Origin: Candidatus Paceibacter sp.
GTDB taxonomy: Bacteria; Patescibacteriota; Minisyncoccia; UBA9983
Assembly: GCA_013360865.1 (NCBI GenBank)
Contig: JABWAS010000009.1
Coordinates: forward strand, 1 to 38,667
Direction of reading: 5' to 3'
Length of the DNA stretch: 38,667 nucleotides
Of this stretch, positions 3,881 through 20,196 are shown one piece after another; within the stretch, counting starts at the first letter, position 1, and every line of letters begins with the position of its first letter. The notes beneath the pieces were generated by a model. That model saw nothing but the letters and a program-made list of their open reading frames with translations, made no database searches and was not told the origin of the DNA. The position numbers were made by a program, and so were the translations under genes.

Positions 3881-4596
3881 TGGATGTTTACGGCAACGTA
3901 GCTGGCAACGACGGCCGCCGTTTCCGCCCTTAAAACAGTTTTACCCAATCCGGCAAATGTAAATCCGGCAGATTGGGCTGTTTTTACTTCTTCGTCCGCC
4001 CAACCTCCTTCCGGCCCCACAAAAATTCCGATATGGCATTCTGTATTTTTAGGCCGATCGGCATTTTTTTGCAGAATAAGACTATAGCCAGTTTGGAAAA
4101 ATAAATTTAAGTCGTTTTTATTTTTTGCTTCATCAACAGACTTTTCAAAGTCAGACGCTTTGTTAAGTTTCGACAAAATTCCGCGGCCGGATTGTTCAGC
4201 TGCTTCTTTAATGATTTTATTTAGCCGTTCGTAATTCAGGCCAAGTTTTATCGTTCTTGCCGTGATAATCGGCGTTATTTCTTTTACCCCGACTTCCACT
4301 GCTTTCTGTGCCGCCAATTCAAAATTCTCTTTCTTCAAAATGGGGCAATAGAGATGGGCGTAATTTTCCGGCTCGTTTTCGTTTCTATAAACTTTCAAAA
4401 TCTCCAACTTGGAAGCTAAGCTTCCAAGTTCAGCAAAGCGGGCCGTTGTCTCGTTCATATTTCCGTCGCATAAAATAATTTCATCGCCCGCCCTAAGCCG
4501 CAAAACATTTTTCGCCTGATTGATAAAATCGGCGTCATTAATTGACACTTCTTTTTTTGATAAATCAAAATTTCCGATGAATCGATGCAAGCGCAT
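3877..4596 (-). CDS. rsmE: 16S rRNA (uracil(1498)-N3)-methyltransferase (RsmE)
   Basis: SPOUT-class methyltransferase that modifies U1498 of 16S rRNA in the 30S decoding region. It has 239 residues. Seen are the start MRLHRFIGNFD, the conserved block KAVEVGVKEITPIITART, the AAEQSGRG motif and the knot signature FVGPEGGWADEEV followed by LGKTVLRAETAAVVA. Reading from the start, a perfect palindrome (4406-4430) encodes an extra stretch ELGSLASKLE in the N-terminal PUA-like domain. It starts 3 nt after the rtcB stop and overlaps queA by 4 nt, so it sits in the operon. Confidence 0.95.
   Translation of the reverse strand: MRLHRFIGNFDLSKKEVSINDADFINQAKNVLRLRAGDEIILCDGNMNETTARFAELGSLASKLEILKVYRNENEPENYAHLYCPILKKENFELAAQKAVEVGVKEITPIITARTIKLGLNYERLNKIIKEAAEQSGRGILSKLNKASDFEKSVDEAKNKNDLNLFFQTGYSLILQKNADRPKNTECHIGIFVGPEGGWADEEVKTAQSAGFTFAGLGKTVLRAETAAVVASYVAVNIQ
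4406..4430. repeat. 25-bp palindrome inside rsmE (ACTTGGA family)
   Basis: AACTTGGAAGCT-A-AGCTTCCAAGTT: perfect 12-bp arms with a 1-nt centre. Its ends ACTTGGA/TCCAAGT are shared with the palindromes in recR (14758-14799) and in the ctpA-rplI spacer (19229-19251). Confidence 0.75.
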
Positions 4597-4599
4597 AAA

Positions 4600-6003
4600 T
4601 TATCCTTTTACCACCGCCAGCGGCTTCATTTTGGCCACTTTTTTGGCGATGCCGGCATTGTGAACCACATCCACCACTTCGTCAACGTCTTTATAAGCCG
4701 TCGGCGCTTCTTCGGCGAGGCCAGACATTGAGCCGGCCGCCACGACAATGCCTTCATTTTCCAATTCTTGTTTGAGCGCGGAACCGCTTATTTCTCGCTT
4801 GGCCTGATGGCGCGACATTCTTCGGCCGGCGCCGTGGCAGGACGAGCCGAAACTTTCTTCCAGCGCTTTTTCCTGACCGATAAGCAAATAAGAGCCGGTG
4901 CCCATACTGCCGGGAATAATAACCGGCTGATTGGGAAAGGCTCGGGTAGCGCCCTTGCGGTGCATTACCATCGTTTTTTCTTTCCCGTTGATTTTATAAT
5001 TTTCCACCTTGGCGATGTTGTGCGCCACGTCGTAAAGAATATCCAACTTGCCCCCGTCGCCGAAAACTTTTTTCCACGCCTGCCTTACTTCGTAAGTAAT
5101 GAGCTGGCGGTTGGCCCAGGCGAAGTTGGCGCCGGCGCACATCGCTTTAAAATATCTCTGACCTTCATCCGACTTAAACGGCGCGCAGGCCAGTTCTTTG
5201 TCGGCCAAAGCGATGCCGTATTTTTGCGCCGCCGCCAGCATTACTTTTATGTAATCAGTGGCTATTTGATGGCCCAGCCCGCGCGAACCGGTGTGGATTA
5301 AAACTGCCGCTTGCCCTTCAAAAACACCCAGCCTGTCCGCCTCGGCTTTGTCAAAAATTTTCTCCACCGCCTCCACTTCCACGAAGTGGTTGCCCGCGCC
5401 CATTGTGCCGAGTTGGTCGGCGCCGCGCGCCTTAGCTTGAGCAGACACCAGCACAGCGGAAGCTTGTTCAAGACGACCCTCCGATTCTGTATGTTTTAGG
5501 TCTTCCGACGCGCCGTAGCCCATCTCCGCCATTCTTTTGGCGCCGCCTTCCAGAACCGCGTCCAACTCTTTTCCTCTTAAATCCAAAATCCCGCCTTTGC
5601 CCACGCCGGAGGGAACTTCTTTGTAAATCGCCCGAGCCAGTTCGTGTTTTTTTACTTCCAAATCTTTTGCTGGAATTTGAGAAATAAGCAAGCGGACCCC
5701 GCAGTTTATGTCGTAACCGATGCCGCCAGGTGATATCACTCCACTTTCCGCGTCAAACGCCGCCACGCCGCCGATAGGGAAACCGTAGCCCTCATGGATG
5801 TCCGGCATGGCGATGGCGTATTTTTGGATACCAGGCAAAGTGGAAACATTTACTAATTGTTCCAATGACCGGTCGCGGACAACCTCGACAAGCATCTTTT
5901 CCGTAGCGTAAATTCGGGCCGGAACCTTCATTCCCGGCCTCGCGCCCAGCGGTATTTCCCAAAGCCAGTCGTGAATTTTGATAAGATTATTTTTGCTGAA
6001 CAT
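4600..6003 (-). CDS. rtcB: RNA-splicing ligase RtcB
   Basis: GTP- and Mn2+-dependent ligase that joins RNA 2',3'-cyclic-phosphate or 3'-phosphate ends to 5'-OH ends. It has 467 residues, the usual length. Visible active-site blocks are MPDIHEGYGFPIGGVAAFD, SPGGIGYDINCGVRLL (metal-binding Asp and Cys), GTMGAGNHFVEV, VLIHTGSRGLGHQ, YDVAHNIAKVE, VMHRKGATRAFP, IPGSMGTGSYL and SSCHGAGRRMSR, which carries the His that accepts GMP. All key residues are present, so it should be active. It lies 12 nt after thpR and 3 nt before rsmE. Archease and a 2',3'-cyclic phosphodiesterase immediately upstream suggest a dedicated RNA repair or splicing unit. Confidence 0.97.
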   Translation of the reverse strand: MFSKNNLIKIHDWLWEIPLGARPGMKVPARIYATEKMLVEVVRDRSLEQLVNVSTLPGIQKYAIAMPDIHEGYGFPIGGVAAFDAESGVISPGGIGYDINCGVRLLISQIPAKDLEVKKHELARAIYKEVPSGVGKGGILDLRGKELDAVLEGGAKRMAEMGYGASEDLKHTESEGRLEQASAVLVSAQAKARGADQLGTMGAGNHFVEVEAVEKIFDKAEADRLGVFEGQAAVLIHTGSRGLGHQIATDYIKVMLAAAQKYGIALADKELACAPFKSDEGQRYFKAMCAGANFAWANRQLITYEVRQAWKKVFGDGGKLDILYDVAHNIAKVENYKINGKEKTMVMHRKGATRAFPNQPVIIPGSMGTGSYLLIGQEKALEESFGSSCHGAGRRMSRHQAKREISGSALKQELENEGIVVAAGSMSGLAEEAPTAYKDVDEVVDVVHNAGIAKKVAKMKPLAVVKG

Positions 6004-6015
6004 AAAGTTAGAATA

Positions 6016-6549
6016 TCAAAACAATGCTCTCCGTAAAATTTCATAATCCGCCCCGTTTGGAGAAAGTTTTGATTCCATTATAACCACGTTGTCCGTCTTT
6101 ACTTTCCAGGAGATTTTTTCGTCCAGGTTTTTAATAGGAAAGCCGCCAAAATCTTCCGGCTTGAAGCGAGCCATGGTGAGATGGGGCAGCCAGGGGCGGT
6201 TTTCGTTTTTAACTCCGAAAACATTTTCCAGTTTTTCTTTCATTTCAGTCAAAACCGTGTTTGCAACTCCCTCCGCCCATATTAAACGAGGATTATTTTT
6301 GTTCGAGCCGAAGCGCACTCTCGCAAATTCTATTTCAAAAGGCTGGAAATTTTTTATAGCATCTTTTAGTTTATCAGTGGTGGATTCAATATCGTTTTCC
6401 CGCCATGGCGGAACAAGAGTAAGATGCAGATTTTTCCCGGCCAGCCATCGGACTGGTAGTTTTTGCAGTTCCGTTTTGGAATTTATCCAATCCAAAATTT
6501 CTTTTTGCGAATCTTCCGGAATTGGTATGGCGATAAAAATTCTTTTCAT
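6016..6549 (-). CDS. thpR: RNA 2',3'-cyclic phosphodiesterase (2H superfamily, ThpR/LigT)
   Basis: 2H phosphoesterase that opens 2',3'-cyclic phosphate RNA ends, historically called 2'-5' RNA ligase. It has 177 residues. Both catalytic HxTx motifs are seen: HLTLVPPW near residue 44 and HLTMARF near residue 125. The start MKRIFIAIPIPE is typical. Its ATG overlaps the archease stop by 4 nt (ATGA), and it is followed after 12 nt by rtcB. Chemically it produces or removes the same end that RtcB uses, so the three genes probably act on the same RNAs. Which RNAs is unknown. Confidence 0.93.
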   Translation of the reverse strand: MKRIFIAIPIPEDSQKEILDWINSKTELQKLPVRWLAGKNLHLTLVPPWRENDIESTTDKLKDAIKNFQPFEIEFARVRFGSNKNNPRLIWAEGVANTVLTEMKEKLENVFGVKNENRPWLPHLTMARFKPEDFGGFPIKNLDEKISWKVKTDNVVIMESKLSPNGADYEILRRALF

Positions 6550-6950
6550 ATATCAAAAACTAAAACCGTTTCCCACTGACTTTCTTTATTTTGCTTTATT
6601 TCAGCTTCGTGATAGGTTATCGCCTTTATATCTTCGTCAAATCCGCCGACTTTAAATCCTTCAATTTCCGCCTCAAGACGAGTTTCGGAAAAATCCAAGA
6701 AATTAACTTTTGTGTAAACCTCCTTGTTTATTTGCGACATCGCCAAAACCTCGTTTAAAAAATCAACAAGTAAAGATGTTTTGTCTTGCGCGGATACGGA
6801 AACTTTTCTGATAATTGGCTTTCCGGTTTTTCGTTTTTCGCTCAAAACATCCGCAACCGCCAGCAAAGCCTCGCCAAAAAGCTCTTTAAGGCTGCTGGCT
6901 TGTATTTTAAGCCTTAAATCGGCGGTATGGGATAAAATTTCGTACGGCAT
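6546..6950 (-). CDS. Archease, RtcB activation factor
   Basis: Archease promotes RtcB guanylylation and turnover. It has 134 residues, family length. Recognisable are the start MPYEILSHTADLRLKI with the conserved H-T-A-D, the LLVDFLNEVL motif and the C-terminal FDEDIKAITYHEAEI block containing the acidic metal-binding residues and the invariant K-A-x-T-Y-H. It is the first gene of the minus-strand operon. A minus-strand extended -10 (TGTTACAAT, 6960-6968) puts the predicted transcript start about 3 nt before the ATG, with no Shine-Dalgarno. Confidence 0.93.
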   Translation of the reverse strand: MPYEILSHTADLRLKIQASSLKELFGEALLAVADVLSEKRKTGKPIIRKVSVSAQDKTSLLVDFLNEVLAMSQINKEVYTKVNFLDFSETRLEAEIEGFKVGGFDEDIKAITYHEAEIKQNKESQWETVLVFDI

Positions 6951-6959
6951 CTTAATAGA

Positions 6960-6968
6960 ATTGTAACA
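6960..6968 (-). promoter_or_regulatory. Extended -10 promoter of the archease-rtcB operon
   Basis: Reads TGTTACAAT on the minus strand. The hexamer ends 9 nt before the ATG at 6950, predicting a leader of only a few nucleotides. No good -35 was found. Confidence 0.5.
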
Positions 6969-6981
6969 TATCCACAGGGGC

Positions 6982-7011
6982 TTGACTTTTATTAAAATAC
7001 CAGGGTATAAT
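6982..7011 (+). promoter_or_regulatory. Sigma-70-type promoter for the 41-residue gene
   Basis: TTGACT (6982-6987), 18-nt spacer, TATAAT (7006-7011). The predicted start is near 7018, giving a leader of about 44 nt before the ATG at 7062. Confidence 0.8.
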
Positions 7012-7061
7012 AAGATAGTCTGTTTTTTATATCCGGTACCTTTTTATAAGGAGGATTAAAG

Positions 7062-7187
7062 ATGATTTGGCAAATAATAGTGTCAGTTGGAGTTATAGCG
7101 GTGCTGGCAATTTGTGCCAGGGAGATAATGGTTCTGAGAAGAGGACGCAAATATAGTTTCTTTGTTTTTTCAGAAGATGATTGCTAG
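7062..7187 (+). CDS. 41-residue single-TM peptide with arginine cluster
   Basis: Starts with ATG 7 nt after AAGGAGG (7049-7055), an excellent Shine-Dalgarno, and ends with TAG. The N-terminal 18 residues are hydrophobic (QIIVSVGVIAVLAICA), followed by REIMVLRRGRKYSFFVF and an acidic tail ending EDDC. Promoter, ribosome site and a downstream terminator (7225-7282) make a complete unit. No family is recognised. It may be a small membrane protein. Since argS follows the terminator and the peptide has an R-rich stretch (RRGRK), a leader-peptide role is an alternative, though argS also has its own promoter-like site. Confidence 0.7.
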   Translation: MIWQIIVSVGVIAVLAICAREIMVLRRGRKYSFFVFSEDDC

Positions 7188-7197
7188 AAAGGATATT

Positions 7198-7245
7198 ATG
7201 TCACCATCTTTGATTCGCTCGTACGGCTTGGCAAACTTATTTTAA
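7198..7245 (+). CDS. 15-residue mini-ORF overlapping a terminator arm
   Basis: ATG at 7198 follows AAAGG by 5 nt and encodes MSPSLIRSYGLANLF. Its last codons lie on the left arm of the 12-bp terminator stem (7225-7236). A ribosome on these codons would block the hairpin, so an attenuation role is conceivable. Chance occurrence cannot be excluded. Confidence 0.3.
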   Translation: MSPSLIRSYGLANLF

Positions 7246-7282
7246 ATTATAAATACACACAATGTTTGCCAAGCCTTTTATT
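7225..7282 (+). terminator. Rho-independent terminator upstream of argS
   Basis: GGCTTGGCAAAC (7225-7236) pairs perfectly over 12 bp with GTTTGCCAAGCC (7264-7275), with a 27-nt loop, followed by TTTTATTTTT. Confidence 0.8.
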
Positions 7283-7312
7283 TTTGCGCGGCTTCATAAA
7301 ATTGCCGATAAA

Positions 7313-7321
7313 TGCTATAAT
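7313..7321 (+). promoter_or_regulatory. Extended -10 promoter of argS
   Basis: TGCTATAAT, with 13 nt between the hexamer and the argS ATG. The predicted leader is about 7 nt, too short for a Shine-Dalgarno, and none is seen. Confidence 0.65.
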
Positions 7322-7334
7322 TTCGCCATAATAA

Positions 7335-9212
7335 ATGAAAGGCGAATCTCCACAATCTTTTTTTGAGTCCGTAAAAAAAGAGGCTCAAAAATCCATAGAA
7401 AAAACCAAAAAAAGAATCGCTAAAGAAATTTCCGGCGGGAAGTTTCGCTCTTTAAACGACTACGCCGCGGAAAAAATAAGAAACGATATTTTTGAGGCGA
7501 TAAAAGATTCCGTGAAGGTTATGCCGGAAAATATTTCTCCGGAACTTCCGCCGGCGCACATTGCCGCCGATTTGAGCTTGCCTATTTTTGAGCTCGCCAA
7601 AGCAATCGGCAAAAATCCAGCCGCGTTGGCGGCAGAAATCGCCGGTTTGATAAACAACGCGAAACAAAATTTTATAAGCAAAGCGGAGACCGCCGGACCG
7701 TTCGTCAATCTGTTTTTAAACAAGAAAAAAGTCTATTCGCTGGCCGCGGCGCAACCGGCCAAATTTAAAGAAAAATTCGGCCAAAGCGACGCCAACGCCG
7801 GCAAGGCCGTATTGCTAGACTATTCCGGCCCCAACATCGCCAAGCCGATAGGGGTGGGGCATTTGCGTTCCACTGTCATCGGCCAGGCGCTGGCTAATAT
7901 TTACAAAGCGACAGGCTGTTCAGTGATAAAGGACAACCATTTAGGCGATTGGGGCACGCAGTTCGGCAAACTTGTTTACGCGTACAAAAAATGGGGCGAC
8001 AAAAAGAAAATAGCCCAAGACCCGATCCGCGAGCTCAACAATCTTTACGTAAAGTTCCATGAAGAGGCGGAAAAAAATCCAAAATTGGAAGACGAAGCCC
8101 GCGCTATATTCAAAAAAATGGAAGAGGGCGACGAAAAGCTGCTGCGGCTCTGGAAAAAATTCAGAAAAATAAGCCTTGCCGAATTTAAAAAAGTTTACAA
8201 GAAGCTCGGCGTAAGCTTTGACACTTACATCGGCGAAAGTTATTTCGCCAAAGAAACGGATAAAATAATTGAAGAATGTCTGGACAAAAAACTGGCCAAA
8301 ATTGATTCTGAAACCAAGGCGGTCGCGGTTGAAGGATTGGATGGCCTGCCATCGTTTTTGCTGCGCAAAAAAGACGATTCCGGCTTGTATATTACCAGGG
8401 ATTTGGCCACTTTGATTTTTAGGATGGAAGTTTTTGAGCCGGATGAAATTTTGTATGTGGTCGGCGAAGAGCAGTCCTTGCACTTCAAACAGCTTTTCGC
8501 GCTGGCAAAAACGCTCGGATACACAGACGGCGCCAAAGCCAAACACATCGGCTTTGGTTTGGTTTTGTCCGGCGGCGAAAAAATGTCCACCCGCAAAGGC
8601 ACTTTGATAGAGCTGGAGGAGTTGATGAAGCAATCGGTTGAAAAGTCAAAAGAAATTTTGCGGCAAAAAAACAGAGAATTGAGCGAAAAGGAAATTGAGG
8701 AAATTTCGGAGATTGTCGGAGTGGGAGCAGTAATCTACAACGACCTGCGGCAATCGCGCCAGAATAACATTTCTTTTGATTGGGAAAGAATGCTTGATTT
8801 TGAGGGCGGCAGCGCCGCTTATCTGCAATACACTTACGCTCGGATAAATTCAATCATTAGAAAAGTAGGATATCCAGACCATCAAGGCGACGCCTTGATG
8901 TCAAAGCGTCGCCTTGATGGTAAAATTTCCAATCCGGTCTTTGAGAAGGACAGCGAGTTCGCGCTGGCCAAAAAGATGATGTTTTTCCCGCGGGTGATTT
9001 TAAGCGCGCAAAAGCGCGACGCGCCGCATCTTATCGCCGTTTATCTGGAAGAGCTGGCGCAATTGTTCAATCATTTCTACAACGAAGTCTCCATAATCGG
9101 CACGGAGAACGCTAAACTGCGCGCGTCCAGGATAACGCTGGTAAAATCAGTGGCCGCCGTCATAAAAAACGGCCTGGCTTTGCTCAATATAAAAACCGCA
9201 GAAAGAATTTGA
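7335..9212 (+). CDS. argS: Arginyl-tRNA synthetase
   Basis: Class I synthetase that charges tRNA-Arg; 625 residues. The N-terminal additional domain is followed by the HIGH-type motif in NIAKPIGVGHLRSTVIGQ, then NHLGDWGTQFGKL, a KMSKS-type motif GEKMSTRKGT, and a C-terminal DALR anticodon-binding domain (AAYLQYTYARINSIIRK to the end LNIKTAERI). Between the DALR start and FALAKKMMFFPRV a palindromic segment (8878-8921) encodes DHQGDALMSKRRLDGK, extra compared with the short variable loop normal here. The ATG start follows an extended -10 with almost no leader. A TTGACA overlapping the TGA stop starts the promoter of the next gene. Confidence 0.97.
   Translation: MKGESPQSFFESVKKEAQKSIEKTKKRIAKEISGGKFRSLNDYAAEKIRNDIFEAIKDSVKVMPENISPELPPAHIAADLSLPIFELAKAIGKNPAALAAEIAGLINNAKQNFISKAETAGPFVNLFLNKKKVYSLAAAQPAKFKEKFGQSDANAGKAVLLDYSGPNIAKPIGVGHLRSTVIGQALANIYKATGCSVIKDNHLGDWGTQFGKLVYAYKKWGDKKKIAQDPIRELNNLYVKFHEEAEKNPKLEDEARAIFKKMEEGDEKLLRLWKKFRKISLAEFKKVYKKLGVSFDTYIGESYFAKETDKIIEECLDKKLAKIDSETKAVAVEGLDGLPSFLLRKKDDSGLYITRDLATLIFRMEVFEPDEILYVVGEEQSLHFKQLFALAKTLGYTDGAKAKHIGFGLVLSGGEKMSTRKGTLIELEELMKQSVEKSKEILRQKNRELSEKEIEEISEIVGVGAVIYNDLRQSRQNNISFDWERMLDFEGGSAAYLQYTYARINSIIRKVGYPDHQGDALMSKRRLDGKISNPVFEKDSEFALAKKMMFFPRVILSAQKRDAPHLIAVYLEELAQLFNHFYNEVSIIGTENAKLRASRITLVKSVAAVIKNGLALLNIKTAERI
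8878..8921. repeat. 44-bp palindrome inside argS
   Basis: ACCATCAAGGCGACGC (8878-8893) pairs perfectly over 16 bp with GCGTCGCCTTGATGGT (8906-8921), with a 12-nt loop that itself carries a third copy of CTTGATG. It lies in a variable loop of the DALR domain, in frame. Confidence 0.75.
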
Positions 9213-9237
9213 CAATAATAATATTTTAAGGTACTTT
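9209..9237 (+). promoter_or_regulatory. Promoter of the receiver-like gene, overlapping the argS stop
   Basis: TTGACA (9209-9214), 17-nt spacer, TACTTT (9232-9237). The leader would be about 55 nt with AAAGGCGGG just upstream of the ATG at 9297. Confidence 0.55.
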
Positions 9238-9296
9238 AGTTAAAGCTGTAGTTTTAAATTTACCCCATCACATCTTAAAAAAGAAAGGCGGGATGC

Positions 9297-9770
9297 ATGG
9301 ATAACAAGAAAGTGCTTGTAGTAAACAACAATGAGTCAATTGTAATGCTTTTTGAAGCATTCAGAAGGCACTACAAAGTAAAATCGCTGGTGATAGTAAA
9401 TGGAGATTCCCCGGAAGCAATAAGTACCGTCGCGGAAGCCGTTAAGAAAATTAAAAATACCGATTTTGATATCCTCGTAATCGGCCATAAATTAAGCCAC
9501 TTTGCTCCGGAAAAATTTTATGCCGGGACAGCAATGGCCACGGACGAGGAGACTCTGGATGTATTAGAAAATCCGGAGATAAAAAATATTTTGAAAAACA
9601 AGGTTGTAATATCAGACGGGCTTAATCCCGGAACCATTGAAGAAATAAGAAATTTATACAGGGAACTTGGCGTAAATCATTTTATAAATCGCACTTACAG
9701 CGATTTTAAAAACAGGTTTGAGAATATGCTTAAATGTTTGGACGGCAAATGCGATTGCGCCTCCTTATAA
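9297..9770 (+). CDS. Receiver-like (CheY-fold) protein without the usual phospho-acceptor Asp
   Basis: 157 residues. The N-terminus KKVLVVNNNESIVMLFEAF resembles a response-regulator receiver start, but the acidic pair after beta-1 is replaced by NNN. The strand where the phospho-Asp should be reads FDILVIGHKLSHF, with G at that position. Later, ILKNKVVISDGLNPGTIEEI and LGVNHFINRTYSDFKNRFENML fit the remaining alpha/beta alternation. It ends with a Cys-rich tail GKCDCASL. It has its own promoter, a Shine-Dalgarno AAAGGCGGG and a terminator, and sits between argS and aspS. A pseudo-receiver is the best guess. The family call is tentative and the function unknown. Confidence 0.6.
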   Translation: MDNKKVLVVNNNESIVMLFEAFRRHYKVKSLVIVNGDSPEAISTVAEAVKKIKNTDFDILVIGHKLSHFAPEKFYAGTAMATDEETLDVLENPEIKNILKNKVVISDGLNPGTIEEIRNLYRELGVNHFINRTYSDFKNRFENMLKCLDGKCDCASL

Positions 9771-9802
9771 AGATAAAGCATGGGTTTAAAATTTACAGGA
9801 TA

Positions 9803-9840
9803 AAAGCCGGGTAGAAATAGCGCCCGGCTTTTTTATTTTA
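9803..9840 (+). terminator. Rho-independent terminator
   Basis: AAAGCCGGG (9803-9811) pairs with CCCGGCTTT (9823-9831), loop 11 nt, then a T-rich run. Confidence 0.85.
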
Positions 9841-9871
9841 AAAAACGGAAAATTATGCTAAGCTTTTAGCA

Positions 9872-11272
9872 ATGGAACGAATATACATAAAAGAGCTCAA
9901 AAATAAAATCGGCGAGGAGGTAAAAATCGCCGGGTGGGTGGATATCCGCCGCGACCACGGCAAGCTTATTTTCATTGACCTGCGCGACGTGTCCGGCAAA
10001 GTCCAAATGGTGGCCTTGCCTAATCATAAAGAGGCGCACGAGGCGGCCAGCAAACTTCGTTCGGAGTGGGTGATTGAGGTTGTAGGCAAAGTAAACAAGC
10101 GGCCAGAAAAAATGGTGAACAAAAACGAAGAACTGGGCGAAGTGGAGGTGGAGATTTTGGATGTAAATATTTTAAACGAAGCTGTCACTCCCGTTTTTGA
10201 AATAAACAATGATGGACACGAAGTGAATGAAGAAACAAGGTTAACAAACAGGTATCTTGATTTAAGAAGAAACCGTCTGCAGAAAAATTTAAGAATGCGG
10301 CACGAGGTCATCAAATTTTTCAGGAATTACTTGTCGGACAAAAATTTTATTGAAATAGAAACGCCGCTCCTTACCAAATCCACGCCGGAAGGGGCGAGAG
10401 ATTTTGTCGTGCCGTCCCGATTATATAACGGGAAATTTTATGCTTTGCCTCAATCGCCCCAACAATACAAACAGCTTTTAATGTCAGCGGGGATGGAAAA
10501 ATATTTTCAAATTGCCAAGTGTTTGCGAGATGAAGACACAAGAGGAGACAGACAGCCGGAGTTCACTCAACTTGATTTGGAAATGAGTTTTGTCGCGAAG
10601 AAAGATGTAATGAATCTGATAGAGGAAATGCTTATATCGACAATTAAAGAGTTGTACCCGCAAAAGAAAATTCAGCAAATTCCTTTTCCTGTTCTTTCTT
10701 ACAAAGAAGCGATGGGCAAATACAATTCAGACAAGCCTGATTTAAGAGAAGATAAAAACAATCCGGATTTGCTGGCGTTTTGCTGGGTTATTGATTTTCC
10801 GTTTTTTGAAAAAACCGACAAGGGTGGCTGGACATTCACTCACAATCCTTTTTCGGCGCCCAAACCAGAACATATGGAAATGCTGATGGAGAAAAAAAAT
10901 ATCGGAGAAATTTTGACTACTCAGTACGACATTGCCCTAAACGGATTTGAAGCGGGAGGGGGGAGCATCAGAAATCACAAGACGGAAGCTTTGGAAAAAG
11001 TTTTTGAGATAATGGGTTTTGAAAAAGAAAAAATTTGGCAGGATTTCGGCCATATGTTGAAAGCTTTTTCTTCCGGCACGCCTCCGCACGGCGGAATCGC
11101 TTTAGGATTGGACAGACTGATGATGATTTTACAAAACGAACCGAACATCCGCGAAGTTATCGCTTTCCCCAAGACCGGCGACGCCCGCGATCCGATGATG
11201 GACAGTCCAAGTGAAATAGGAAAAGAGCAATTGTTAGAACTCGGAATACAAATCAAAAAACTTAACAAATAA
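9872..11272 (+). CDS. aspS: Aspartyl-tRNA synthetase, bacterial type lacking the GAD insert domain
   Basis: Class II synthetase; 466 residues against about 590 for ordinary bacterial AspRS. The N-terminal OB fold is VKIAGWVDIRRDHGKLIFID. Motif 2 is FQIAKCLRDEDTRGDRQPEF, with the bacterial QSPQQYKQLLM. Motif 3 is GTPPHGGIALGLDRLMM. After YKEAMGKYNSDKPDLRED the chain goes almost directly to FCWVIDFPFFE, so the roughly 120-residue GAD domain usually inserted there is missing. The core looks intact and active. Whether it is discriminating (Asp only) or also charges tRNA-Asn cannot be decided here. A TATGCT-type -10 lies about 12 nt before the ATG, and there is no Shine-Dalgarno. Confidence 0.95.
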   Translation: MERIYIKELKNKIGEEVKIAGWVDIRRDHGKLIFIDLRDVSGKVQMVALPNHKEAHEAASKLRSEWVIEVVGKVNKRPEKMVNKNEELGEVEVEILDVNILNEAVTPVFEINNDGHEVNEETRLTNRYLDLRRNRLQKNLRMRHEVIKFFRNYLSDKNFIEIETPLLTKSTPEGARDFVVPSRLYNGKFYALPQSPQQYKQLLMSAGMEKYFQIAKCLRDEDTRGDRQPEFTQLDLEMSFVAKKDVMNLIEEMLISTIKELYPQKKIQQIPFPVLSYKEAMGKYNSDKPDLREDKNNPDLLAFCWVIDFPFFEKTDKGGWTFTHNPFSAPKPEHMEMLMEKKNIGEILTTQYDIALNGFEAGGGSIRNHKTEALEKVFEIMGFEKEKIWQDFGHMLKAFSSGTPPHGGIALGLDRLMMILQNEPNIREVIAFPKTGDARDPMMDSPSEIGKEQLLELGIQIKKLNK

Positions 11273-11292
11273 AGCATAATTATCCAAAATCC

Positions 11293-11320
11293 TTGACTTT
11301 TTGTTAGAATTGTGTATAAT
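11293..11320 (+). promoter_or_regulatory. Sigma-70-type promoter for the 117-residue gene
   Basis: TTGACT (11293-11298), 16-nt spacer, TATAAT (11315-11320). The following leader of about 72 nt contains two small hairpins, TCGCC-GATA-GGCGA (11349-11362) and TCTGG-CGGGA-CCAGA (near 11370-11384), just before AGGAGG. Confidence 0.75.
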
Positions 11321-11398
11321 TTTCTCATAAATTTGATCATTTAAAGTTTCGCCGATAGGCGACCGACATCTGGCGGGACCAGAAAGAGGAGGAAGAAT

Positions 11399-11752: not shown

Positions 11753-11770
11753 GGAATCGTTAAGTACTCA

Positions 11771-11808
11771 AAGGGCAGATTGCGTAAAAAGCAATTTGCC
11801 CTTTTGTT
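11771..11808 (+). terminator. Rho-independent terminator
   Basis: AAGGGCAGATTGC (11771-11783) pairs with GCAATTTGCCCTT (11791-11803) with one mismatch, loop 7 nt, then TTGTTTTT. Confidence 0.8.
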
Positions 11809-11812
11809 TTTG

Positions 11813-11821
11813 TGCTATAAT
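11813..11821 (+). promoter_or_regulatory. Extended -10 promoter of the RhuM-Fic gene
   Basis: TGCTATAAT directly after the terminator, with 11 nt between the hexamer and the ATG at 11833. The site rules out the in-frame TTG at 11821 as start, because that codon would lie within the -10 box. Confidence 0.65.
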
Positions 11822-11832
11822 TGCGGTGGATA

Positions 11833-12804: not shown

Positions 12805-12845
12805 TAAAGATTATCAAAAACTTAATATCAGAGTAAAATCAAATC

Positions 12846-13943
12846 ATGCCGGAAATTTTTACGATAATTTTGGTTTTAATCGGCGCGGTGGCTGTTTTGG
12901 CCGTCGTTTTTTGGCTGATGATGAAGAAAATGCTGGCGGGCAGGGAAGCGGCCGGGCCGGAAAAAAACGAAGGGTTAATGCTGATGCAAAACCAGCTCAG
13001 AGAATTAAGAGAGGCGCTGCACCGGACGAATTTGGACATCAGAAACACATTAGACACAAGAATAGGGGAGTCCACCAAAGCGATGCAGTCGCAGATCGGC
13101 CACTCCGCCAAAATTATTTCCGAAGTGACGGAAAAGCTCACCAAGTTGGACGAAACAAACAAGCAAGTCGTCGGCTTCGCCGGCCAGTTGCAAAATCTGC
13201 AGAATATTTTAACCAACCCCAAGCAAAGAGGAGTGTTGGGGGAATATTATCTGGAAACAGTGCTGAAAAACGTTCTGCCGCCCGGGAGCTACCAGATGCA
13301 ATACGGTTTTAAAGACGGCATCATCGTGGACGCGGCGGTATTCGTCAAAGACAAAATAATCCCGATAGATTCCAAATTCTCGCTGGAAAACTATAACCGC
13401 ATAGTGCAGGAAACAAACGCGGCTGAGCGAGAGAAGCTGGAAAAAACCTTCAAGCAGGATTTGAAAAACAGGATTGACGAAACATCAAAATACATCCGAC
13501 CCAACGAAGGCACCACCGACTTCGCTTTTATGTTCATTCCCTCAGAAGGGATTTTTTACGACCTGCTTATAAACCAGGTCGGCGCCGTCAAAACCTCCAC
13601 CGTTGACCTCATAGAATACGCCTTCAAACAGAAGAAAGTCATCATCACCTCGCCCACGACTTTCTTGGCTTATCTGCAGACGGTTTTGCAGGGGCTGAAG
13701 GCTTTGCAGATAGAAGAATCGGCCAAGGAGATAAGAAAGAGGGTGGAGGATTTGTCGCGCCACCTCGGCGCCTACGAAGAGTACATGAAGAAGCTCGGCG
13801 CCAATCTGGCCACCACCGTAAACACCTACAACAGCTCGTACAAAGAATTAAACAAGATAGACAAAGACGTTTTGCGTATAACCGGCGCGGCTATCGGCGT
13901 GGAGCCGCAGGTTTTGGATAAGCCGGAGGAAATTTTATTTTGA
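12846..13943 (+). CDS. rmuC: RmuC-family DNA recombination protein
   Basis: 365 residues. There is one N-terminal TM (IFTIILVLIGAVAVLAVVFWLMM), a coiled-coil region (about residues 40-120) and the conserved RmuC nuclease-like domain: NPKQRGVLGEYYLETVL, IVDAAVFVKDKIIPIDSKF, FAFMFIPSEGIFYDLL and VIITSPTTFLAYLQTVLQGL. RmuC limits inversions and recombination at inverted repeats in E. coli, which is relevant given the many palindromes here. A TAAAAT box (12834-12839) ends 6 nt before the ATG, so the transcript could start exactly at the ATG. It is followed 19 nt later by rplU. Confidence 0.93.
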   Translation: MPEIFTIILVLIGAVAVLAVVFWLMMKKMLAGREAAGPEKNEGLMLMQNQLRELREALHRTNLDIRNTLDTRIGESTKAMQSQIGHSAKIISEVTEKLTKLDETNKQVVGFAGQLQNLQNILTNPKQRGVLGEYYLETVLKNVLPPGSYQMQYGFKDGIIVDAAVFVKDKIIPIDSKFSLENYNRIVQETNAAEREKLEKTFKQDLKNRIDETSKYIRPNEGTTDFAFMFIPSEGIFYDLLINQVGAVKTSTVDLIEYAFKQKKVIITSPTTFLAYLQTVLQGLKALQIEESAKEIRKRVEDLSRHLGAYEEYMKKLGANLATTVNTYNSSYKELNKIDKDVLRITGAAIGVEPQVLDKPEEILF

Positions 13944-13962
13944 TGTAATATAAGGCTTAATT

Positions 13963-14289
13963 ATGAACGACAAACTAGCGGTAATCCAGACCGGCGGAAA
14001 GCAGTACTTGGTTAAAGCCGGCCAAAAAATAAAGGTGGAAAAATTAAACGACGCAGACGCACAGGAAGGCGCCACTGTTAATTTTGACAAAGTGTTGCTT
14101 GTTGCCGAAGGAGATAACATCAAAGTGGGCAAACCCCAGGTTGCCGGATCTTCCGTTTCCGCCAAGGTGCTGAGAAACGGCCGGGCCGACAAAATCACGA
14201 TTTTAAAATACAAATCCAAAACTCGATCCCGCAAGAAAGCCGGCCATCGCCAGCCGTTTACGGAAGTCCAAATAGAAGAGATAAAGTAA
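13963..14289 (+). CDS. rplU: Large ribosomal subunit protein bL21
   Basis: 108 residues. Start NDKLAVIQTGGKQYLVKAGQ and C-terminal YKSKTRSRKKAGHRQPFTEV are family hallmarks. It binds 23S rRNA. The usual partner rpmA (bL27) is not downstream but 5.5 kb away on the other strand. A TAATAT box lies 11 nt before the ATG and no Shine-Dalgarno is seen. Confidence 0.97.
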   Translation: MNDKLAVIQTGGKQYLVKAGQKIKVEKLNDADAQEGATVNFDKVLLVAEGDNIKVGKPQVAGSSVSAKVLRNGRADKITILKYKSKTRSRKKAGHRQPFTEVQIEEIK

Positions 14290-14315
14290 TCCCAAATATT
14301 TCTGGCAAATAAATA

Positions 14316-14362
14316 AAACCGTCCTCATTTTACTGCTATCGCTTAAAAGTGAGGACGGTTTT
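14316..14362. terminator. Bidirectional terminator between rplU and recR
   Basis: AAAACCGTCCTCA and TGAGGACGGTTTT pair over 13 bp with A/T-rich flanks on both sides. It lies between convergent genes. Confidence 0.85.
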
Positions 14363-14371
14363 ATAAATAAC

Positions 14372-14989
14372 TCATTTTCTGTTTTCCAGCGCGTTTTCTA
14401 TGGTGTCGCTGTCGCTGTATTCCAATTCGGCGCCAGTGGAAAGGCCTCGTCCGAGTTTCGTTATCTTAACCCCCAACGGCTCCAGCAGTCTTTTGATGTA
14501 AAGATTGGTGCTTTCTCCTTCCGTCGTGGCGCCGGTGGCCAGAATAACTTCCCGCGGTTTTTCTTTTTTAACTTTTTCAAACAACTCCTTGAGCCGGACA
14601 TTTTCAGTTTTTCCGCCGCCGTTTAATTCCACCACGCCGCCAAGCACGAAATATCTTCCGTTAAAAACACGCGTCCGTTCTATATTTTCCAAATCAACGT
14701 CTTTTTCCACCACCATCAACAAGGAAACATCACGTCCTATACCCGCGCAAATTTTGCACTTGGAAGTTTTGCTTCCACTTGGAAGCGAAACTTCCAAGTT
14801 TCCCTGTTCAAAATAATGAAAACAAGATTCACACTGCCTCATTCCGCTTTTTATTTCGGCAATGAGTTTGGACAGGGAATCAACAAAACCCTTATTTTCT
14901 CCGGCCAGAAAATAAACAAACCGCCGGGCCTGGCGCGGCCCGACGCCCGGGAACTTTAAAAACATTTCAATTAACTTTTCCAGGTTCAT
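14372..14989 (-). CDS. recR: Recombination protein RecR with enlarged zinc-finger loop
   Basis: Part of the RecFOR/RecOR gap-repair machinery that loads RecA. It has 205 residues. N-terminal helix-hairpin-helix LKFPGVGPRQARRF, then a C4 zinc finger CESC...CKIC, then the Toprim domain with LMVVEKDVDLENIERT and ATGATTEGESTNLYI. In most RecR proteins the two CxxC pairs are about 8-10 residues apart. Here they are 21 apart because a palindromic segment of 42 bp (14758-14799) encodes the linker NLEVSLPSGSKTSK. All four cysteines are kept. It lies 18 nt downstream of dnaB in the same direction, so co-transcription is likely. Confidence 0.96.
   Translation of the reverse strand: MNLEKLIEMFLKFPGVGPRQARRFVYFLAGENKGFVDSLSKLIAEIKSGMRQCESCFHYFEQGNLEVSLPSGSKTSKCKICAGIGRDVSLLMVVEKDVDLENIERTRVFNGRYFVLGGVVELNGGGKTENVRLKELFEKVKKEKPREVILATGATTEGESTNLYIKRLLEPLGVKITKLGRGLSTGAELEYSDSDTIENALENRK
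14758..14799. repeat. 42-bp palindrome inside the recR zinc finger (ACTTGGA family)
   Basis: ACTTGGAAGTTTTGCTTCC (14758-14776) pairs with GGAAGCGAAACTTCCAAGT (14781-14799) over 19 bp with one mismatch and a 4-nt loop. The length is exactly 14 codons. Confidence 0.8.
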
Positions 14990-15007
14990 TTTTCAGTTGG
15001 GCTCGGA

Positions 15008-16366
15008 TTAAAAACTTCCAAAATCGCCCCTTTCTATGCCGCTGAAGCTGACTTTTTCCGGATTAAAATACAGGTCTATTTTTCCAGTGGGGCCGTTTCT
15101 ATGCTTCTCAACGTGAATCTCGGCTATGTTCTTTCTGTCCGTGTCCGGTTTGTATTTATCCTCCCGATAAATAAACATAACAACGTCCGCGTCCTGCTCA
15201 ATTGAGCCGGAATCGCGCAGGTCGTGCAGTTTAGGAATGGGCGGATTTCTCAATTCCACCGCTCTGGCCAGCTGCGACAGCGCCAGCACCGGTACCTCCA
15301 GATCTTTGGCCAATCCTTTGAGCGAGCGGGAAATTTCCGTTATCTGCTGGACCATGTTGTCGGACTTCTGCCGCGGCACCATAAGCTGGAGATAATCAAC
15401 GACCAGAAGCCCAAGGCCGTGTTCCGCCTGCAGCCGCCTGGCTTTGGCTCTCATCTGCATAATGTTTACGGATGATTCGTCGTCTATGAATATCGGCGCG
15501 GTGGAAAGCCTGTCCAAAGCGTCTCTTATCCTGGTGAACTCTTCTTCGCTGGAAAGTTTGCCGGTACGCAATTTCCACGAGTCAACGTGCGCTTCCGAAG
15601 CGATCATTCTGTCCACCAAAGACTGGGTGGACATTTCAAGACTAAAGATGCCCACAGGTATACTATATTTACAGGCCACGTTGCGGGCAATGTCCAAAGC
15701 CAGCGCCGATTTACCCATGGAAGGCCGGGCGGCAAGAATGATGAGGTCTGATTTCTGGAATCCGGCCAGCAAATTGTCCAGCTCGGAAAATCCGGTCGGC
15801 GTGCCTCGCAGTTCGCCCTTGGACTTATGCAGCTTGTCAAACCTCTCCCAGGCATCCATCATGGATGTCTTCATATTCACAAATCTTTGTTTGGATGACA
15901 TTCTGGCGATGCTGAATATCTTTTTCTCCGCTTCGTCCAGAAGGGAGTCAATCTCTTCCTCCTCTTTGTAGCCGAGCTGGGAGATGTGGCTGGAGGATTC
16001 TATCAGGTCCCTCAGGACGCTTTTCTTGTGGACTATCTCGGCGTAATGTTTGGCGTTGCTGGCGGTAGGCACGTAATTGACCAGTTCCGCGAGGTAGGCG
16101 CTGCCGCCGACGTTTTCCAAAAGCTTTTTTTCTTTAAGCCGGTTGGAAAGCGAGAGAACGTCTATCGGCTCCCGTTTGGAGTGCAGGTCCATTATTGCTT
16201 CGTAAATCGCCTGATGTTTGTTGTGGTAAAAATCTTCCGGCTGAAGAATATCCACCACCACGTCCATTACCTTCGGCTCAAGCATCAGCGCCCCCAAAAC
16301 AGATTTTTCCGCCTCAAGATTGTGGGGCGGGATTCTCACGGACAAAGATTTGAATTCGTCGGACAT
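15008..16366 (-). CDS. dnaB: Replicative DNA helicase DnaB
   Basis: Hexameric 5'-3' helicase at the replication fork; 452 residues, normal length. The N-terminal domain is RIPPHNLEAEKSVLGALM, then the linker, then the RecA-like domain with Walker A AARPSMGKSALALD, the FSLEMSTQSLVDRM block, Walker B LLVVDYLQLM, LSQLARAVELR and GSIEQDADVVMFIYRE. No intein is present. The promoter on the minus strand is TTGCGC, 17 nt, TATTAT (16380-16408). The predicted leader is about 7 nt. recR follows. Confidence 0.97.
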   Translation of the reverse strand: MSDEFKSLSVRIPPHNLEAEKSVLGALMLEPKVMDVVVDILQPEDFYHNKHQAIYEAIMDLHSKREPIDVLSLSNRLKEKKLLENVGGSAYLAELVNYVPTASNAKHYAEIVHKKSVLRDLIESSSHISQLGYKEEEEIDSLLDEAEKKIFSIARMSSKQRFVNMKTSMMDAWERFDKLHKSKGELRGTPTGFSELDNLLAGFQKSDLIILAARPSMGKSALALDIARNVACKYSIPVGIFSLEMSTQSLVDRMIASEAHVDSWKLRTGKLSSEEEFTRIRDALDRLSTAPIFIDDESSVNIMQMRAKARRLQAEHGLGLLVVDYLQLMVPRQKSDNMVQQITEISRSLKGLAKDLEVPVLALSQLARAVELRNPPIPKLHDLRDSGSIEQDADVVMFIYREDKYKPDTDRKNIAEIHVEKHRNGPTGKIDLYFNPEKVSFSGIERGDFGSF

Positions 16367-16379
16367 AAGTATTGCTTAA

Positions 16380-16408
16380 ATAATACACAATGTCGGGAGC
16401 AAGCGCAA
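16380..16408 (-). promoter_or_regulatory. dnaB promoter (divergent)
   Basis: On the minus strand TTGCGC (16403-16408), 17-nt spacer, TATTAT (16380-16385), then 13 nt to the ATG. It is back-to-back with the promoter at 16411-16438, so the -35 boxes are only 2 nt apart and the two may interfere. Confidence 0.6.
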
Positions 16409-16410
16409 AA

Positions 16411-16438
16411 TTGACATGGCGTTTAATCATAATAATAT
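16411..16438 (+). promoter_or_regulatory. Sigma-70-type promoter for the acidic orphan gene
   Basis: TTGACA (16411-16416), 16-nt spacer, TAATAT (16433-16438). A leader of about 60 nt ends in AAGGAGGGGG. Confidence 0.7.
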
Positions 16439-16504
16439 TAAAGCTAGCGGCAGAAGTTCCTTAACTTTAAAAATAAAAACCAAGACGAACAAAAGGAGGG
16501 GGAC

Positions 16505-16936
16505 ATGGTTGACAAGATTTTAGAGTACGCGCTAGTGCAGCACGACGAGAACAGCATATCAATTCACTTTAAGCGAAGATTGTCCGAAACTCTTGATGGT
16601 GTTGAGATATTAATGGAGTTGCCTATTATTGCCAGCGCCGGCGAAATTCAAAGTCTTCACGAAGACGACGACACCGAAGCCGAAGTTGAAATTGCCGTAG
16701 AAGACGATAACACCGTTCGCAACTCAAATAATCTTTTGCGTTTAATCGGCCAGATGGTGGGGAGAGTGTCCGGCGTTAGTTATGCTGAAATTGATAACTT
16801 TGAGATTTTTATTGAGAAAGGGCTTTTGTTCAATTGGGACAAGGTAGTGGTAGATGTTATTTCCAATGTCCTCATGGCAATAGGACCAAATTGGAAAGCA
16901 AAACTTGTGTATATAAACAAGCAGGAAGGTAAATAA
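16505..16936 (+). CDS. Acidic protein of unknown function
   Basis: 143 residues with a strongly acidic central stretch (HEDDDTEAEVEIAVEDD), no TM and no signal peptide. It alternates beta-like segments (SISIHFKRRL, VEILMELPIIA) with helix-like ones (NNLLRLIGQMVGRV). Start ATG after AAGGAGGGGGAC, an exceptionally strong ribosome site. Complete transcription unit: divergent promoter and an 18-bp terminator at 16945-16984. I recognise no family. It lies between dnaB and corA and seems functionally unrelated to either. Confidence 0.75.
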   Translation: MVDKILEYALVQHDENSISIHFKRRLSETLDGVEILMELPIIASAGEIQSLHEDDDTEAEVEIAVEDDNTVRNSNNLLRLIGQMVGRVSGVSYAEIDNFEIFIEKGLLFNWDKVVVDVISNVLMAIGPNWKAKLVYINKQEGK

Positions 16937-16944
16937 AGTACATT

Positions 16945-16984
16945 AAAAGAGCCGAGAATTAGAAGCCTAATTCTCGGCTCTTTT
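16945..16984. terminator. Bidirectional terminator
   Basis: AAAAGAGCCGAGAATTAG (16945-16962) pairs perfectly over 18 bp with its complement at 16967-16984, with a 4-nt loop. It is A-rich and T-rich on the outer sides, between convergent genes. Confidence 0.9.
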
Positions 16985-16992
16985 ATATCTAC

Positions 16993-17907
16993 TTACAGCC
17001 ACTTTTTCTTTTTAAATACGGAGAAGGTCGCGCCGGCGGCGGCAATCATCAAAAATACCACTATCCAGAAATCTCCGGTTTTCCCGACGATAGGCAAAGA
17101 GTTGGTGTTCATACTGAACAGACTGGACAAGAACATTACCGGAAAGGTGATAAAAGCCATGATGGTCAAAGTTTTCATAATCTCATTAGTGCGGTTGGAG
17201 AGCAGGGAATTGTTTGTTTCTCGCAGAATTTCTATGGCCTGGCGGGAATTGTCCAGCAAGCTCTCAACCCGACCCAGCTCTCCTTCAATTATTCTCAAAT
17301 AGCGTTGGAATTCCTCGCCCATCAATTTTCCGTCTATGGCTTCCAGCGACGCCATGACACTTTTATGCGCGTGCACCGACCGCTCAAACTCCAAAATGTC
17401 CCGCTGAACGAAAGAAATTTCCTTTACCATCTCTTTCTCCAACCCTTTGAACACATGCTCTTCTATAATGGATATTTTTTCCTGGACGTGATCCAGCTGC
17501 CGCAAGGCGAAGTCGTATAAATGCCGGATGATGAGAAACATCAGGCGGCTGGTGCTTTTGGACATATTCTTTTCTCCCATCAGAGAGTCAACCTCAAAAG
17601 TTTTTATCATTTCGTGCAGAGGAATGATGGACTGGTAGTGGGTGGTGATTATGAAATTTTTTCCGACGATAAAGTCTATTTCGCAGGGGGAGCTGGTCTT
17701 TCTAACGATATCATAAACAGGGAAGTGCAGGACGAGATAAATAAATTTGTCGTAAGCGTCAACCTTGGGGCGGACTGTGGGGCGCAGAAGCTCGTCGGCC
17801 ACCGCGGGCGGAATGGCGAATTTTTGCATCACTTCTTTAACCTCTTCCGGCGTGGGCGACTCCAAATCCGTCCAGGAAAGATTTTTGCGCTTGTGGGAAG
17901 AAATCAT
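16993..17907 (-). CDS. corA: CorA-family divalent cation transporter with SMN instead of GMN
   Basis: 304 residues. An N-terminal cytoplasmic alpha/beta domain is followed by a long helical stalk and two C-terminal TM segments (TIMAFITFPVMFLSSLF and FWIVVFLMIAAAGATF), ending in KKKKWL. In CorA the invariant selectivity motif after TM1 is GMN. Here it reads FSMNTNSLP, so the glycine is replaced by serine. The family fold is clear, but Mg2+ selectivity or transport may differ. The gene is divergent from ctpA, and the spacer holds a 37-bp palindrome (17924-17960). Confidence 0.88.
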   Translation of the reverse strand: MISSHKRKNLSWTDLESPTPEEVKEVMQKFAIPPAVADELLRPTVRPKVDAYDKFIYLVLHFPVYDIVRKTSSPCEIDFIVGKNFIITTHYQSIIPLHEMIKTFEVDSLMGEKNMSKSTSRLMFLIIRHLYDFALRQLDHVQEKISIIEEHVFKGLEKEMVKEISFVQRDILEFERSVHAHKSVMASLEAIDGKLMGEEFQRYLRIIEGELGRVESLLDNSRQAIEILRETNNSLLSNRTNEIMKTLTIMAFITFPVMFLSSLFSMNTNSLPIVGKTGDFWIVVFLMIAAAGATFSVFKKKKWL

Positions 17908-17923
17908 AATTTGCGTTATTGGT

Positions 17924-17960
17924 TCGATGTCGGACGTCGAAGCTCGACGTCCGACATCGA
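17924..17960. repeat. 37-bp palindrome in the corA-ctpA spacer
   Basis: TCGATGTCGGACGTCGA (17924-17940) pairs perfectly over 17 bp with 17944-17960, loop AGC. It shares the TCGA-n3-C-GGAC-n-TCGA pattern with the palindrome at 20369-20415. It could be an operator for the divergent pair, but the similarity to a coding-region copy favours a dispersed element. Confidence 0.7.
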
Positions 17961-18002
17961 GGATTGTTTTAATTATAACTTTTTTGATGTAGAATGGAAA
18001 TT

Positions 18003-19220
18003 ATGCAAAAAAGAAAAAAACTTTTTACCTGGATAAGCTGCTTTTTGGCGGCTTTATTGATTTTTTCCGCCGGAGCTTACTTCGGTTATTCACAGATACC
18101 GGATGTGGAGATAGTGACGGGTTTGGCGAATAAAGAGACGGAAAAGCCGGCCGAGGTTGATTTTTCTCCGTTCTGGAAGGCTTGGTCTGTCATCAAATCA
18201 AAATACGTTTCCGCCGGCGACGCGGACGACCAGAAGCTTGTCTGGGGCGCCGTGGAAGGGCTGACAAAATCATTAGGCGACCCGCATTCAGTGTTCTTCC
18301 CGCCGCAGGAAGCGAAAGAATTTGAGGAAAACATCAGAGGCGACTTCGGCGGCGTGGGAATGGAAATAGGGGTTAAAGGAGGCTACGTCACGGTAATAGC
18401 GCCGCTTAAAGATACTCCGGCTTATCGCGCCGGCATTAAAGCGGGCGACAAAATTTTAAAAATTGGCGATAAGGAAGCTTTGGATATGAGCGCGGAAGAA
18501 GCGGCTCGGCTCATCCGCGGAGAGATAGGCACTACGGTCGCCCTCCTGATATTGCAGAAAGACCAGGACGAGCCTAAAGAATTTAAAATAACGAGGGCCA
18601 AAATCACCGTGCCTATTTTGGACACGGAGCAATTGCCGGGTGGCATATTCGTCATCAAGCTTTACAGCTTCTCCGGCAACTCCGACAAAGAATTCCGCCA
18701 GGCCATCCGAGACTTCGTCTATTCCGGCAAAGATAAGCTCATTATAGACCTGCGGGGCAATCCGGGTGGATTTTTGGAATCGGCGGTGGACATATCCAGC
18801 TGGTTCTTGCCGGCGGGAGAAGTGGTAGCCAGGGAAAAATTCGCCAGCGGAGAAGAAAATCTCTTTCGCAGCAAAGGCTATGATGTCTTTAAAAATCTTC
18901 CTTTGGCGATATTGGTCAACGAGGGCAGCGCCTCCGCTTCCGAGATTATGGCTGGCGCTTTGCAGGAGCACGGCAAAGCCAAGCTCGTCGGAACAAAAAC
19001 TTACGGCAAGGGTTCGGTGCAGGAATTGTTTGAGATAACGCCGGACACCTCGCTCAAGCTCACTATCGCCAAATGGTTAACCCCCAATGGCCGTTCCATC
19101 TCCGACCTCGGCCTGGAACCGGATTACAAGGTGGAAATAACCAAGAAAGACGTGGAAGCCGAAAAAGACCCCCAAATGGAAAAGGCGATAGAGGTGGTCA
19201 AGAATTGGGGTAAATTATAA
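18003..19220 (+). CDS. ctpA: C-terminal processing peptidase (S41 family)
   Basis: 405 residues from the ATG at 18003; an ATG at 17994 is also in frame. Signal/TM anchor [21 protein letters not shown], an N-terminal helical domain, PDZ domain ([19 protein letters not shown] to [11 protein letters not shown]), then the S41 protease core. The catalytic Ser is in [15 protein letters not shown] and the Lys in [10 protein letters not shown]. The substrate-binding strand is [13 protein letters not shown]. It acts outside the membrane on protein C-termini. The TAGAAT box at 17990-17995 ends 7 nt before 18003, which favours the second ATG and a leaderless mRNA. Confidence 0.95.
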
Positions 19221-19228
19221 GCAAAACC

Positions 19229-19251
19229 ACTTGGACATCAGATGTCCAAGT
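19229..19251. repeat. 23-bp palindrome in the ctpA-rplI spacer (ACTTGGA family)
   Basis: ACTTGGACATC-A-GATGTCCAAGT, perfect 11-bp arms. It lies 9 nt after the ctpA stop and 12 nt before the rplI ATG. No T-run follows on the plus strand, so it is not a standard terminator. Confidence 0.75.
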
Positions 19252-20094: not shown

Positions 20095-20196
20095 AATTTC
20101 TAAAAATTTTGCGGTCCTGCCTGGTTGCTTCAACCTGGAAGGTCAGTAAAATTTTTGATGACTGAAAGAATAATTTATATTACTATAATATTTAGT

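Follow-up and report, generated by a model that had tools for sequence, protein, structure and literature searches.

Three palindromes that share the ends ACTTGGA and TCCAAGT lie within a 38,667-nucleotide stretch of the Candidatus Paceibacter sp. genome (contig JABWAS010000009.1; hereafter the window), two of them inside conserved coding sequences and one between genes, which raises the question of what these repeats are and how they come to reside in genes. The original prediction held that they represent a small palindromic element able to insert into genes, similar in concept to the Rickettsia palindromic elements (RPEs). Our analysis points to a different origin, namely REP-like miniature elements that belong to a RAYT (TnpA_REP-like) system and take a form encountered here in Patescibacteria, a reading to which we assign a probability of roughly 0.78.

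All three palindromes are present at exactly the positions predicted and have the predicted ends (Table 1). The element is built on an odd palindrome of 23 bp, two of which, overlapping and fused, make up the 42-bp form in recR. The identities of the genes were confirmed by Pfam, and the copies in rsmE and recR are in frame, in agreement with the claim that conserved proteins carry the palindrome without frame damage. In RecR, the two zinc-finger CxxC pairs lie on either side of the doublet, and in the AlphaFold model of the protein (mean pLDDT 79) residues 61-80, which contain the insert, form a low-confidence loop (pLDDT 59-66), consistent with a tolerated surface loop. The intergenic copy was not found in the aligned ctpA-rplI spacers of relatives. 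The initial list of three was nevertheless incomplete, as the window contains three further palindromes belonging to other families, the last of which lies in a gene whose small product has a zinc-binding domain of the Ada type. A weaker palindrome (AAGATGTCCGACGTCG..) resembling the TCGA family is also found in cysS (1684-1707). At its end, the window encodes an 841-aa pyruvate phosphate dikinase/PEP synthase-like protein (36104-38629).

Table 1. Palindromic elements of the window and the genes or spacers that hold them.
Element	Position	Context	Gene strand	Remarks
23-bp ACTTGG palindrome (25 bp with flanking A/T)	4406-4430	in frame in rsmE (3877-4596)	-	host by Pfam; encodes ELGSLASKL
42-bp ACTTGG doublet	14758-14799	in frame in recR (14372-14989)	-	encodes NLEVSLPSGSKTSK
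23-bp ACTTGG palindrome	19229-19251	ctpA-rplI spacer		12 bp before rplI start
44-bp inverted doublet, TCAAGG..CCTTGA palindrome	8878-8921	in frame in argS (7335-9212)	+	family of RAYT genes G000:C1:6577 and C5:41779
37-bp inverted doublet of TCGAYGTCNGACRTCGA palindrome	17924-17960	corA-ctpA spacer		family of RAYT gene G000:C4:47151
47-bp perfect palindrome, doublet with TCGTCGA..TCGACGA arms	20369-20415	in frame in 20125-20586	+	put in TCRTCGA type by resemblance only

As predicted, the motif is commoner than expected by chance. Searching for ACTTGGA-N(0-30)-TCCAAGT gave four matches in the window and none in 100 shuffles, and in the genome as a whole (G000; 848 kb, 46 contigs) the 23-bp form, ACTTGGA-N9-TCCAAGT, and the 42-bp doublet together account for 20 forward matches at 17 sites, compared to none for the pattern read backwards. 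The nearest named relatives of its RecR, from Terrybacteria, Nomurabacteria and the Parcubacteria group, place this genome among the Paceibacteria of the Patescibacteria. Amongst 384 genomes of the class, ACTTGG-N11-CCAAGT is present in 90, representing 71 of 294 genera, with up to 35 copies per genome and about a dozen control matches in total. The three outermost unspecified pairs of the 98 distinct copies are almost always complementary, and 82 copies are paired at four or five of the five inner positions. Viral contigs contained 80 matches to the same 14 fixed bases; their centres are non-palindromic, with 0/80 fully paired, and we therefore regard these as chance matches. The ends of the element are thus conserved while its interior is variable yet self-complementary. 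Taken together, the shuffles, the reversed-pattern control and the unpaired viral centres rule out a chance origin and confirm that these palindromes are genuine copies of a small dispersed repeat in the tiny genomes of Patescibacteria, which are ultra-small bacteria. Intrinsic terminators were rejected given that no T run follows the palindromes, and no Rfam RNA family was matched at the gathering threshold.

Copies within genes are not restricted to rsmE and recR. In the window's own genome, in-frame copies are also found in TIM, LigA, MurD, a HolA-like protein and UvrB, with the remainder being mostly intergenic, and in four relatives (G005, G009, G015 and G093) they occupy DnaG, GyrA, TopA, UvrC, Fmt, Tgt, MnmA (two doublets), ValRS, FolD, ribulose-phosphate epimerase and others; these names come from reading the proteins, with a Pfam check for the genes of the window. 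All reading frames are used. The mnmA gene of G005 (L293, contig C3) holds four ACTTGG units arranged as two 48-bp doublets with differing centres, all in frame. DNA replication and repair genes seem to be over-represented as hosts (holA, uvrB, ligA, recR, dnaG, gyrA, uvrC and topA; L403, L404, L006, L015, L306, L308, L314 and L322), at 8 of 20 distinct hosts (P = 2e-4 against a guessed share of 9%, in a non-random sample).

The palindrome is also not the lone insertion that was first envisaged, as in relatives it both flanks and sits inside genes for Y1 transposases. A search for Y1_Tnp (PF01797) across 55 relatives revealed genes for Y1/HUH tyrosine transposases of approximately 210-245 aa (RAYT/TnpA_REP-like) that are flanked by ACTTGG palindromes, and 60 such loci, when retrieved, yielded 65 usable gene records (59 distinct). 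Over the 65 records, palindrome density is 7.2/kb in the 5' region and 5.8/kb in the 3' region versus 0.52/kb elsewhere in the same loci (14- and 11-fold). The ACTTGG clade has four stereotyped positions, at about -40, at +170 to +180, at +446 to +455, and at the stop codon or beyond it. Both internal copies are in frame, and inspection of the proteins places one immediately ahead of the HUH motif and the other immediately behind the Y motif. The HUH and Y motifs are present, with F replacing W in the sequences read, and the NCBIfam RAYT model NF047646 matches these transposases at E-values of 1e-5 to 7e-13, below its cut-off. By sequence, no credible relative of solved structure was identified. 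The absence of a PHROG match to the RAYT, along with the chance nature of the viral-contig matches, led us to reject spread by phage. In G093, contigs C8, C54, C55 and C63 carry ACTTGG clusters spaced as at RAYT genes, the inner variant differing from one cluster to the next, and the C8 cluster includes a RAYT-like gene.

Other RAYT clades have palindromes of different sequence at comparable positions (ATCAAGG-TCGGA-CCTTGAT, TCATCGACGTCGGACGTCGATGA, TGTTAAAAGCCGAGCTTTTAACA and more). For 31 of 35 genes (89%), the 5' and 3' palindromes of the one gene have at least 9 nt in common, versus 2% between different genes, and internal copies match the palindrome of their own gene in 85% of cases versus 3.5%. 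In a maximum-likelihood tree, whose bootstrap is not fully settled, the ACTTGG-type RAYTs essentially form one clade (support 100/99), which holds 13 of the 14 together with one relative, and the AAGG-type RAYTs essentially a separate one (100/99). The palindrome labels, assigned by a simple pattern rule, require 13 changes compared to 30.3 when shuffled. Palindrome type thus follows transposase clade, indicative of co-evolution. The two are also co-distributed: across 55 genomes, the palindrome is present in 13 of 14 with a detected ACTTGG-type RAYT versus 5 of 41 without (Fisher P = 7e-8), a comparison that covers only part of the RAYTs and counts in the palindromes of the RAYT genes themselves.

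An ACTTGG-type RAYT was not found in the window's own genome or in G005, and the ACTTGG copies of the former are therefore orphans whose transposase is either lost or unassembled. An assembly gap is possible since one copy (G000:C10:17159-17181) lies 16 bp from a contig end; another, G005:C8:6697-6719, is likewise within approximately 30 bp of one. This suggests that assemblies break at the palindrome repeats, which may be concealing the missing gene. Two other families in the same genome do have resident transposases. The TCAAGG..CCTTGA pattern has 26 matches, including those belonging to the RAYT genes on C1 and C5 and window positions 8882-8898 in argS, and TCGANGTCNGACNTCGA has eight, including those at the RAYT gene on C4 and the doublet in the corA-ctpA spacer, with no control matches for either. 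Many copies are inverted doublets spaced 20-26 bp apart, reminiscent of REPINs. ACTTGG is thus one of at least three parallel families in this genome, two of which retain a RAYT.

Comparison of alleles revealed that the sites are not occupied in all lineages, as expected for a mobile repeat by the original prediction. G001, from the same genus, has no ACTTGG palindromes and carries empty alleles; palindrome-free alleles of LigA, MurD, RecR and TIM were found there and in others, and the RsmE, TIM, LigA and TopA sites lack the palindrome in the genomes of relatives. The expectation of a clean insertion with definable borders and a target duplication is not supported. The cleanest pair is TopA, occupied in G005 and empty in G010 with flanks 90% identical, where the net change is +21 bp for a palindrome of 23-27 bp and the occupied allele lacks K-N-Y codons that are present in G010 and similar in other empty alleles. 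Net changes elsewhere were 0 for a 33-bp palindrome in UvrC, 0 in RsmE (gapless against most homologues), 0 in TIM relative to G001, +21 in RecR relative to G001 and +24 to +36 in MurD for 42-bp elements, and +24 for about 42 bp in GyrA of G005. The full element length was never gained in the alleles compared, whose empty sites fall short of near-identity, and host bases were lost; no target-site duplication or fixed border was recognised amongst them. Loop lengths vary among homologues, and compensating deletions under selection could possibly explain the small net gains.

A single loop may also bear different palindromes across species. The TIM loop contains a 23-mer with paired base changes in G000 and G007, whereas G005 and G003 have doublets there and G008 a palindrome that is unrelated; the MnmA loop is similar. 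Together with the failure to gain full length, this leaves clean insertion unsupported. Copies are also inherited and decay, as the prepilin peptidase gene (PilD) has an intact copy in G015 and a decayed orthologous copy in G044. A tentative and, in our estimation, rather unlikely extension is that the RAYT-linked hairpin overwrites rather than inserts, replacing loop bases, filling its arms with copies of the neighbouring host sequence and in time giving way to palindromes of other families at the same spot; if so, certain loops of essential proteins would be permanent docking sites for hairpin elements.

These elements share with REP/RAYT systems (REPtrons), especially subclass 2.4 or RAYT group 4 (PMC6006769), short dispersed palindromes that occur singly or as inverted doublets, a Y1/HUH gene flanked by its own palindromes (in relatives for ACTTGG, in the window's genome for the TCAAGG and TCGA types), co-evolution, in-frame palindromes inside the transposase gene, and two-ended palindromes. 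In-frame REPs within the gene and REPs with a double foot are both reported for TnpA_REP subclass 2.4 (PMC6006769). In contrast to that subclass, the internal copies described here fall outside the HUH-Y interval rather than between the motifs; the RAYTs read have FQ or FE in place of the conserved WQ, with Y-x-x-L-N[PD] common, and many copies reside in frame in housekeeping genes of genomes of about 0.5-1 Mb. The canonical mark of a REP is a GT[AG]G tag, and this foot is not enriched at ACTTGG palindromes (7/98 copies versus 5/98 control stretches). Given the missing tag, the F for W substitution, the below-cut-off NCBIfam match, the internal sites outside the HUH-Y interval and the host group, we class the system as a tagless REP/RAYT variant in Patescibacteria. 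Among the open journal papers searched, none names RAYTs and Patescibacteria together.

A further parallel is provided by intragenic GTAG/CGTC REPs, which occur in genes for replication and repair, DNA ligase, tRNA synthetases and tRNA-modifying enzymes, and of which different ones occupy one recB site in two species (PMC3733652). In-frame copies in replication, repair and translation-type genes and differing palindromes at one site are common to both, whereas the outer bases here are ACTTGG rather than CGTC, GTAG is not enriched, and the link to a transposase holds clade by clade, at fixed positions. Two of the RPEs, RPE-4 and RPE-6, are themselves CGTC-tagged REPs (PMC3733652). The IS200/IS605 elements share the Y1 transposase superfamily and hairpin ends; classical ends of this kind were ruled out, as a canonical IS200-type gene in the window's genome (L045, 140 aa) has unrelated hairpins.

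Likeness to the RPEs stands insofar as the palindromes are dispersed and in frame in unrelated proteins. It could be argued further that, as in RPEs, the palindrome spreads through genes independently of any RAYT and that RAYT genes are mere targets, which would fit the many unrelated housekeeping genes occupied and the persistence of copies without a cognate RAYT in G000 and G005. No transposase link is known for the RPEs, while here each type has its cognate RAYT and the ends are ACTTGG rather than CGTC. A mere target would not bear a private palindrome at four stereotyped places whose type tracks transposase phylogeny, and we consider independent spread highly unlikely. Much the same applies to the proposal that the palindromes are immobile binding sites, either operators or chromosome-organising sites, kept by selection for a palindrome-binding protein that may be the RAYT. 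The fixed outer bases do resemble a protein footprint, and in 18 of 39 RAYT genes, versus 8.4 expected, a TATAAT-like box comes directly after the 5' palindrome, which is suggestive of a second role for that copy as an operator. However, the RsmE, TIM, LigA and TopA sites are missing in relatives, the inner bases vary by genome, and in-frame copies in random housekeeping genes would be odd for regulation, leaving this proposal with a very small probability.

Equally improbable is an origin in place, whereby foldback or template-switch DNA synthesis generates each palindrome with no mobile unit being copied and the shared ends reflect a preferred hairpin. The flanks beyond the 23-mer are self-complementary over at least 4 nt in 13% of copies versus 1.7% expected, with copy-specific sequence; the right palindrome arm of one RAYT gene (L059) reads as an inverted copy of its conserved left flank; and the net length change can be zero, as in UvrC, TIM and RsmE. 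These extended flanks and the L059 arm suggest that foldback synthesis may contribute. Yet identical ACTTGG ends at dozens of unrelated sites require template copying, and inner variants, which differ from genome to genome, recur exactly at distant loci within a genome.

We therefore return to the RAYT system, for which we propose the following model. The tie between enzyme and palindrome is established by position, sequence match and phylogeny, and movement by the enzyme is inferred. Each transposase clade has a cognate palindrome both within and around its gene, and the enzyme would recognise single-stranded hairpins of that palindrome, much as E. coli TnpA_REP processes its cognate single-stranded REP in vitro, with enzyme groups that co-evolve with their REPs (PMC8266576). 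The RAYT would then move the palindrome, ACTTGG included, by copying or pasting the hairpin elsewhere in the genome, either as a single unit (23 bp) or as an inverted, REPIN-like doublet (42 bp). Copies survive in intergenic DNA and, with the frame kept, in surface loops of conserved proteins; they are inherited, decay and are rewritten in place, such that the arms stay complementary as types change. The upstream copy, next to the transposase promoter, is probably also an operator, through which the RAYT may regulate its own expression.

With types tied to their own REP-type transposase and copies in frame in housekeeping genes, the palindromes appear to form a new branch within a known class of miniature elements. 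The encoded LGSLASK-like peptides account for odd loops in protein models from Patescibacteria genomes. Since every transposase comes with its cognate palindrome in fixed positions, these genomes supply many natural enzyme/hairpin pairs for testing RAYT recognition and the spread of REPs. Little tolerance of repeats would be expected in the streamlined Patescibacteria, but several families of RAYT-associated palindromes are present in them, with copies inside proteins of replication, repair and translation.
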